The translations under genes and the position numbers were made by a program. A stretch of DNA of 55,392 nt, from NCBI GenBank assembly GCA_903926465.1, contig CAIYJE010000159.1:1-55392 (forward strand). Direction: 5' to 3'. Below, piece by piece: positions 16,336 to 18,106 of the stretch. The notes under the pieces are model-generated. The model was not told the origin of the DNA. It searched no databases and was given only the letters and a program-made list of their open reading frames with translations. The first letter of the stretch is position 1; every line of letters starts with the position of its first letter. This DNA is from an uncultured Planctomycetales bacterium (lineage in GTDB: Bacteria; Planctomycetota; Planctomycetia; Isosphaerales; Isosphaeraceae).

Positions 16336-17391
16336 TTACCTCAGCACAATCGCCAGTCCGTCCATACGCTCACACACCTCACCCACCACGGCGCAGGCTT
16401 GGGCCTTCCTGAACTTCAGCTCGGCCACCAACCGATCCACATGCGCTGGTGCCACGGCAATGAGCAAGCCGCCTGAGGTCTGGGCGTCAAACGCATATTC
16501 CACCCCCAGGGGATCGGCCGATGGCTCGATCCGCAGCCGGCCTTCAAGCACCGCGCGGTTGCCGGCACTGGCTCGCGTATGAAATGCAGGGACTGCCAGC
16601 GGCTCTGAGCCCTGGATCAAGGGCAGGGCACGGCTATCGAGGCAAATTGTCAGGCCCGAACCGTCGGCCATTTCGGCGGCATGGCCCGCCAGACCAAAGC
16701 CGGTCACGTCGGTTAACGCGTGCGCACCGCCGGCGGCCCGTAACGCATCGCGTCCAACCACATTCAGTTCAATCATGCTGGCCACCGCACTGGCCAGAAC
16801 CTCGGGCGGGCATTGATCTTTTTTGTTGGCCGTGGCCACAAACCCCGTACCCAGCGGCTTGGTTAGCACCAGCAGATCGCCAGGCTGGGCGGTGGCGTTG
16901 GTCAAGAGTTCGGCAGGATCCACCAACCCTGTCACGCTCAGGCCGTACTTCACCTCGGCGTCTCGCACCGAGTGCCCGCCCAGCACCACGGCCCCGGCGG
17001 CCGTCACCCGTTCTGCGCCCCCGCGAAGAATCTCGGCCAGGATCGAAAGATCCAGCTCTTTATCAGGAAACCCAACCAGATTCATGGCCGTGATTGGCCG
17101 GCCGTTCATGGCGTACACGTCTGACAGGGCGTTGGCCGCAGCAATTTGGCCGTAAACGTATGGATCATCCACCAGCGGCGGGAAAAAATCGACCGTTTGC
17201 ACCAGTGCCAAATTGGGCGCAAGGCGATACACCCCGGCGTCGTCCGACGTTTCGGTCGCAACGAGCAGGTTCGGATCGGTGGAACGGGGTGGCAGGCTGC
17301 GCAAAACTTGCGCAATTCCCAAGGGGGAAAGCTTGCCCGCTCAGCCGGCACACGACGCAAAACTGGTCAACCGCCGCTCTCGCCCAGTCAT
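16336..17391 (-). CDS. selD: Selenide, water dikinase SelD, a selenocysteine-containing form
   Basis: SelD makes selenophosphate from selenide and ATP, the selenium donor for selenocysteine and selenouridine. From TTG 17322 the frame encodes 328 residues (TETSDDAGVY, QTVDFFPPLVDDP, GGHSVRD, DVTGFGLAGHAAEMA, AQTSGGLL). Upstream the same frame runs through one TGA (17341-17343) to an ATG at 17391, giving about 351 residues: RLTSFASCAG-U-AGKLSP. The Sec is residue 17 and Lys 20, matching catalytic Cys17 and Lys20 of E. coli SelD; the second Cys of that motif is Gly here. A hairpin follows the TGA by 26 nt (17298-17314). Programs that stop at TGA will call a truncated start at 17322. AGGAG lies about 12 nt before the ATG, which is a long spacing. 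Confidence 0.92.
17298..17314 (-). promoter_or_regulatory. Bacterial SECIS hairpin of selD
   Basis: On the coding strand TGCGCAA pairs perfectly with TTGCGCA around a GTT loop. The loop begins 33 nt after the TGA. This fits the published bacterial SECIS model: a short stem with G among the first two loop bases and loop-to-UGA distance of about 16-37 nt. It would recruit SelB. Basis: stem and spacing seen; role inferred. Confidence 0.75.
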
Positions 17392-17420
17392 CGAATCATG
17401 CTGCTCCTGAAACACAGAAA

Positions 17421-17467
17421 TCCGAGAGCGTTCCACGATCACCGATGATCGCGGCCCAACTCTCGGA
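17421..17467 (-). terminator. Hairpin between the SelW-like gene and selD
   Basis: TCCGAGAG (17421-17428) pairs with CTCTCGGA (17460-17467), and inside it CGATCA (17436-17441) pairs with TGATCG (17446-17451). On the minus strand the outer stem is followed by ATTTCTGTGTTT, so it could be an imperfect rho-independent terminator after the SelW-like gene. It was examined as a tRNA-Sec candidate and rejected: too short, and no T-arm. Confidence 0.5.
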
Positions 17468-17516
17468 CTTCAAGAGTAACCAGATCGGCCAGGCAGGCGA
17501 AACCTGCTGGTTCAAA

Positions 17517-17783
17517 CTACTTGTGCGGGGTGCGCGTGAATGGATCAACCCCCAGGGCCTTTTCGACCTCGGCAATCAGTGCGGCTTCATCAGGAAACTT
17601 GCCGGTTTTGAGTTTGGAGTAAAGCAGCGTGCCGCCCACCGTTAGCTCAAAACAGCCCCCGCGTGAAGGGACCAGGGTGTAATTCTTGATCGCTTGTTTG
17701 AAGCGAGGGAGCAACTTGGCCGTCAAACTGACGGCCTGTGGCTCGTAGTTTCACATGGCGCAGTATTCAAGGCGAACGTCCAT
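17517..17783 (-). CDS. SelW-like selenoprotein (Rdx family) with Cys-x-x-Sec
   Basis: 88 residues including one TGA-encoded Sec. From TTG 17726 the protein is MTAKLLPRFKQAIKNYTLV, then PSRGGCFELTVGG, LLYSK and GKFPDEAALI, which are SelW/SelT/SelH (Rdx) landmarks. The N-terminal redox motif is missing in that reading. Upstream in frame the codons give MDVRLEYCAM-U-NYEP from an ATG at 17783, with TGA at 17751-17753 as residue 11 and Cys at residue 8: the CxxU thioredoxin-like motif of the family. GGAG lies about 8 nt before the ATG. A perfect hairpin (17718-17736) follows the TGA. It is expected to be a cytosolic thiol-redox protein. It precedes selD on the same strand, 125 nt apart. Confidence 0.88.
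17718..17736 (-). promoter_or_regulatory. Bacterial SECIS hairpin of the SelW-like gene
   Basis: On the coding strand GGCCGTCA pairs perfectly with TGACGGCC around a GTT loop. The first stem base is 14 nt after the TGA, so the loop starts 22 nt after it, inside the 16-37 nt window reported for bacterial SECIS. Its loop is identical to that of the selD hairpin at 17298-17314. Confidence 0.8.
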
Positions 17784-18106
17784 GGCGTAGCTCCAGGCGT
17801 TGACGAGTGGTTGCAATTTCTTCAAACAACACGAGTAGAAAATTCCTATACGAACGATCTTAAGCAACTCGCTACCGTTCTCAAGCACCTTCTTACAATT
17901 GAGGGGTTTCCGTAGTCACAACGCAGGGGAACGCACGTTCTTGAGAGGCAGGAGAACGCGAGCGTAGCTGGTGGGGACCGGAAAACAATCCAAGAACCAA
18001 GTGCCCTGCCAGAACGTAACCCAGATGGTCACGATGAACCTCAAAATCATCGCGATCCGACGAACCCGCAGAACCTGCGACAAGAAATCAAGGAATTCGT
18101 TCAGTT
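17784..18106. other. Intergenic stretch, mostly unexplained
   Basis: About 320 nt between the SelW-like start and the promoter of the next gene. On the plus strand a frame ending at 17915 encodes VDEWLQFLQTTRVENS and QLATVLKHLLTIEGF, which reads protein-like but has no usable start outside the antisense of the SelW-like gene; it may be a remnant. No tRNA-Sec or other RNA gene was found. Confidence 0.4.

Follow-up and report, generated by a model that had tools for sequence, protein, structure and literature searches.

SelW-like (SELENOW-like) proteins carrying a CxxU motif are an already known family of bacterial selenoproteins, to which the gene described here adds a member. In the portions of the literature available to us, they are counted among the selenoproteins "predicted with high confidence", and operons of Prx and SELENOW-like selenoproteins are noted (PMC13188914). 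In ocean metagenomes, both from the Sargasso Sea and from the GOS, SelW-like proteins rank among the most abundant selenoprotein families (PMC1088965, PMC2398784), and organisms that contain Sec have few Cys homologs of them, or none (PMC1794560). The same portions of the literature give no exact function for bacterial SelW-like selenoproteins. The Sec machinery has been reported in planctomycetes, including I. pallida, in a paper whose main text, as far as available, makes no mention of SelW (PMC4807772). The main text of two further papers (PMC5322559, PMC5029168) contains no SelW, Rdx or planctomycete term.

The window, that is the whole stretch of 55,392 nucleotides analysed here, comes from an uncultured Planctomycetales bacterium and hosts a gene of this type, called selW below; the features discussed are collected in Table 1. 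The original prediction had placed at this site a SelW-like frame interrupted by a TGA, preceded by a GGAG ribosome site and regaining by readthrough 19 residues with a Cys-Ala-Met-Sec motif, and all this is borne out by direct reading of the minus strand. The frame runs from the ATG at 17783-17781 to a TAG stop ending at 17517, and is free of internal stops apart from the TGA at codon 11; with TGA translated as Sec, the product begins MDVRLEYCAMU. The first in-frame start codon past the TGA is a TTG at residue 20, hence the 19 regained residues. The assignment to the SelW/Rdx family stands as well. With Sec entered as Cys, the product scores 67.1 bits against Pfam Rdx (PF10262, cut-off 22.6) and 64.1 bits against NCBIfam TIGR02174 (cut-off 34.2), while its 72.5 bits against the narrower equivalog NF041051 SelTWH_Campy are under the cut-off of 88. 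At the DNA level selW is the sole Rdx match (E ≤ 0.001; 59.6 bits) in the 6.9-Mb genome, and the match spans exactly one TGA. By each sequence test available, selW is almost certainly a genuine SelW-like selenoprotein gene.

Table 1. Features of the selW-selD region and their coordinates in the window
Feature	Position	Strand	Remarks
selD, selenophosphate synthetase, predicted selenoprotein gene (CAG-U-AGK)	16336..17391	-	TIGR00476; start ATG 17391 chosen by the authors
SECIS-like hairpin of selD, UUGCGCAA-GUU-UUGCGCAG	17297..17315	-	loop 33 nt past UGA
In-frame TGA of selD	17341..17343	-	
Long hairpin in the selW-selD gap	17421..17467	-	single copy in genome
selW-like (Rdx/SelW family) selenoprotein gene	17517..17783	-	88 residues, Sec11, CAMU motif at residues 8-11
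Bacterial-SECIS-like hairpin, GGCCGUCA-GUU-UGACGGCC	17718..17736	-	within selW coding sequence; covariation, position
In-frame TGA read as Sec, selW codon 11	17751..17753	-	frame and relatives
GGAG ribosome-binding-like site	17791..17794	-	7 nt before selW ATG, read directly

Relatives of selW were collected in two partly overlapping sets, one from 45 genomes of the same family, the other made of 32 loci from genome contigs. An Rdx match was found in 19 of the 45 family genomes (20 matches in total), and residue 11 is encoded by TGA at 19 of these 20 loci, by TGC at the remaining one (L019). The same codon is TGA in 32/32 genome-contig loci, several of which are also in the family set; taken together, 51 of 52 loci in related planctomycetes carry the TGA, and one a TGC. 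The Cys-type L019 is a second copy, and resides with a Sec-type SelW relative (L037) in a genome bin with 9% contamination (G013). A wider sample, of 392 genomes from the phylum, yielded an Rdx match in 143; among the 150 phylum matches listed, 139 contain exactly one in-frame TGA and 11 no stop (hand count), the position of the TGA having been checked at readable loci alone. At those designated L104-L129 the TGA is at the CxxU site in 26/26, and L100-L103 have Cys there. Overall, the 82 SelW loci examined reduce to 70 distinct rows, and at residue 11 each of the 82 carries either TGA or a codon for Cys (65 TGA, 4 TGC and 1 TGT among the distinct rows), so that an in-frame TGA is aligned with Cys in homologs. 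Gene finders taking TGA solely as a stop would shorten or miss selW, and the same would apply, among the matches listed, in more than 100 genomes of the phylum.

An ordinary, shorter gene might be translated from the TTG at residue 20, the TGA being the genuine end of an upstream stretch that has nothing to do with it. This is the start that a gene finder ignoring Sec would call, and the part downstream of the TGA is open by itself. Yet, a protein beginning there would be deprived of its first predicted beta-strand (residues 2-8) and of the CxxU motif which follows, and the residues ahead of the TGA are conserved among relatives. Moreover, a start codon lies exactly 30 nt upstream of the TGA in 64 of the 65 distinct TGA rows (54 ATG, 9 GTG, 1 TTG), and, as a raw count, a Shine-Dalgarno-like tetramer is found upstream in 54 of the 65. 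The shortened gene is accordingly very improbable. Even less credit can be given to the notion that selW is a decaying pseudogene, and the TGA a nonsense codon. Decay is visible in one relative, but the window gene has no other internal stop, retains each of the 23 residues on which the other 21 relatives of the protein alignment agree without exception, and shares its TGA with relatives across the phylum. The relative in question (L036, in G042) keeps the TGA and 7 of the 8 hairpin pairs and adjoins a Sec-type selD; with Cys8 changed to Arg and Cys44 to Asn, this copy is apparently decaying.

A hairpin resembling bacterial SECIS elements is located within the coding sequence, past the UGA. 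It has an 8-bp stem starting 14 nt, and a GUU loop lying 22 nt, past the UGA, and falls within the bSECIS model as given in the available text of PMC13188914 (loop of 3-9 nt with an early G, stem of 4-16 bp, 16-37 nt from the UGA, MFE ≤ -7.5). The 44-nt stretch containing the hairpin folds at -17.3 kcal/mol, a moderate value (z -3.5; 1 of 200 shuffles as good). No Rfam family was matched in the window at the gathering threshold, and the SECIS assignment therefore rests on covariation and position, rather than on an Rfam family. Covariation was assessed in 65 TGA rows (63 distinct), the same sequences in which the hairpin was first spotted; relatedness is ignored by the shuffle controls, not by the control in which partners were slid. 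Paired cells amount to 87.1%, against 80.9 in the shuffles, and double-changed cells to 34, against a shuffle mean of 9.7. Covariation scores 0.281, and no more than 0.093 with slid partners. Pairs showing double changes are 4 (3.0 in the shuffles); 49 of 500 shuffles give at least as many, and in 33 of 63 rows the two outermost bases do not pair. Compensatory changes are exemplified by GCC..ACG turned into GCU..ACA, and by the GCCAUC..GAUGGC stem of L021, which involves two amino-acid changes. Where the loop falls on a Ser codon (49 rows), that codon is AGT 44 times, whereas AGT accounts for 11 of 273 other Ser codons in the same genes. At least 6 of the 8 pairs are kept in 61 of 65 TGA rows, and 2 to 4 pairs in the five distinct Cys rows.

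The four TGA rows without the usual hairpin (L064, L106, L119 and L125) can form an alternative 6-bp hairpin with a CGUGA loop, 17 nt from the UGA. The replacement of one hairpin by the other is suggestive only, because in a lenient scan the alternative scores 10-11 in these rows, and the Cys row L102 also reaches 10.

Sec insertion demands a decoding system, and the genome has one: selA (508 bits) and selB (353 bits) are on contig 111, with about 0.6 kb between them, and the gene for tRNA-Sec is on contig 44 (64.3 bits; anticodon UCA according to ARAGORN); selW and selD are hosted by a different contig. In the family, selA exceeds the cut-off in 19/19 genomes with an Rdx match versus 11/26 without (Fisher p 2.3e-5, relatedness ignored); G021, in which selA is split into two pieces each under the cut-off, was counted as lacking it. 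The tRNA-Sec scores fall into two groups, and with a threshold of our own between them (62 bits or more) a clear tRNA-Sec is listed for 16 of the 19 Rdx genomes and for 12 of the 26 others. The three Rdx genomes lacking one (G003, G016 and G018) are assemblies of 600-1430 contigs.

The residue inserted at the UGA is not visible to a sequence-based analysis, and reassignment or leaky readthrough might place a different amino acid there, e.g. Trp or Cys. The presence of tRNA-Sec(UCA), selA, selB and selD, the occurrence in relatives of solely TGA or Cys codons at residue 11, and the hairpin which accompanies the TGA forms all speak against this, and we give such decoding hardly any credence. On the evidence set out above the shortened gene, the pseudogene and the reassigned codon were all rejected. 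The reading preferred, to which we assign a probability of about 0.96, is that selW encodes a planctomycete SelW-like selenoprotein. According to this reading, UGA codon 11 would be decoded as selenocysteine by SelA, SelB and tRNA-Sec of the same genome, under the direction of the hairpin lying inside the coding sequence just past the UGA; the small product, of predicted thioredoxin-like fold, would carry out thiol/selenol redox chemistry by its Cys8-x-x-Sec11 pair, and its gene is placed upstream of selD.

selD lies directly downstream of selW on the same strand, and is itself a predicted selenoprotein gene. Its TGA (CAG-U-AGK) corresponds to what we take to be the catalytic position of SelD, and relatives show Cys at that place, in agreement with this notion. 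A hairpin with a GUN loop, 33 nt from the UGA, is the top-ranking one in 15/15 distinct family selD rows with TGA, as well as in L055 and L067, and in 0/15 Cys-type selD rows. In five TGA rows from more distant relatives (L059, L060, L062, L063 and L069) the top rank goes to another hairpin, and the folding energy of the selD stretch of the window is not unusual (z -0.9; 32 of 200 shuffles as good).

The "small selenium island" proposed originally holds in the form of a selW-selD gene pair. Of the 19 family loci with TGA in selW, 15 have selD following on the same strand, the gaps between aligned ends ranging from 16 to 295 nt, and selD is TGA-bearing too in 13 of these 15. Among genome-contig loci L048-L069, selD adjoins selW in 9/22, and these 9 include near-identical relatives; no selD was found by tblastn with SelD in L100-L129, where the stretches are mostly about 3.2 kb long. 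In the two family pairs with a Cys-type selD, L027 (the same locus as L043, Aquisphaera insulae) and L028, selD is devoid of the hairpin described above and adjoins a selW with TGA; the exchange between Sec and Cys has apparently concerned selD alone. In the ORF listings of 16 loci lacking a linked selD no neighbour of selW was noticed as common to all; a few close relatives among them have neighbours in common.

In the window the two genes are separated by 125 nt. This gap is structured (z -5.3 for 17395-17520), and includes a strong, long hairpin that occurs once in the genome and is not listed by the terminator scan; it may be a terminator, an attenuator or a product of chance. selW and selD are probably transcribed together, but a single transcript is not assured because of the structured gap between them. 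SelD would make the selenophosphate needed for Sec insertion into both SelW and SelD.

What SelW does is a matter of inference: a redox role is plausible, perhaps in the service of SelD, and the recurring pairing of the two genes is a concrete lead in this direction. A third Cys may be part of the picture. Cys44, in the motif GGCFE, is present in 18/19 family TGA rows and in 19/20 of the distinct L048-L069 rows, making up 37 of the 39 distinct TGA rows that come from L001, L020-L037 and L048-L069. L104-L129 have it in 6 of 26 rows, and the five Cys rows lack it altogether; it could act as a resolving thiol. According to the available text of PMC13188914, it is incompletely known what donates selenium to SelD in vivo. 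A bolder hypothesis is that SelW and SelD form a working unit, in which SelW, by CxxU and Cys44, would be a dedicated reductant, or a selenium carrier handing selenide to SelD. As the Sec of each of the two proteins itself depends on selenophosphate, the unit would constitute a self-priming, selenium-sensing loop. We regard this scenario as unlikely, and mention it as a speculation.

The relationship with proteins of known structure was assessed by an AlphaFold model built from 22 sequences, in which Sec was modelled as Cys (mean pLDDT 82.6). The selW product is predicted to have the thioredoxin-like fold of SelW. The 21 best Foldseek matches in the PDB are all chains of six SelW-family entries (2fa8, 3dex, 2ojl, 2p0g, 2obk and 2oka), and the assignment is also borne out when PDB sequences are searched with a profile. 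The solved Cys-type structures related to SelW (2fa8, 3dex, 2p0g and others) share fold and family with the selW product at 26-31% identity over those 21 alignments, and have Cys at the Sec position in two alignments from the profile search. Mouse selenoprotein W (2npb; Foldseek rank 23, profile E 1.7e-5) belongs to the same family by profile and has the same fold, but is eukaryotic; in eukaryotes, SECIS elements are found in the 3' UTR and not in the coding sequence, as stated in the available text of PMC1088965.

The closest likeness is to the bacterial SelW-like selenoproteins, as described in the accessible parts of the literature: selW encodes a small Rdx protein with a CxxU motif near the N-terminus, and its coding sequence contains a SECIS-like hairpin past the UGA. 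It may differ from them in Cys44 and in the frequent pairing with selD, traits that were compared within this phylum; descriptions of a clade-specific third Cys of SelW, or of a selW-selD pair in this phylum, were not found in the available portions of the open-licence literature. The neighbouring selD conforms to Sec-containing SelD (TIGR00476), being likewise a predicted Sec-SelD gene with a hairpin of its own. The pairing reported for selD in the available text of PMC1794560 is with ybbB, while here its partner is selW.
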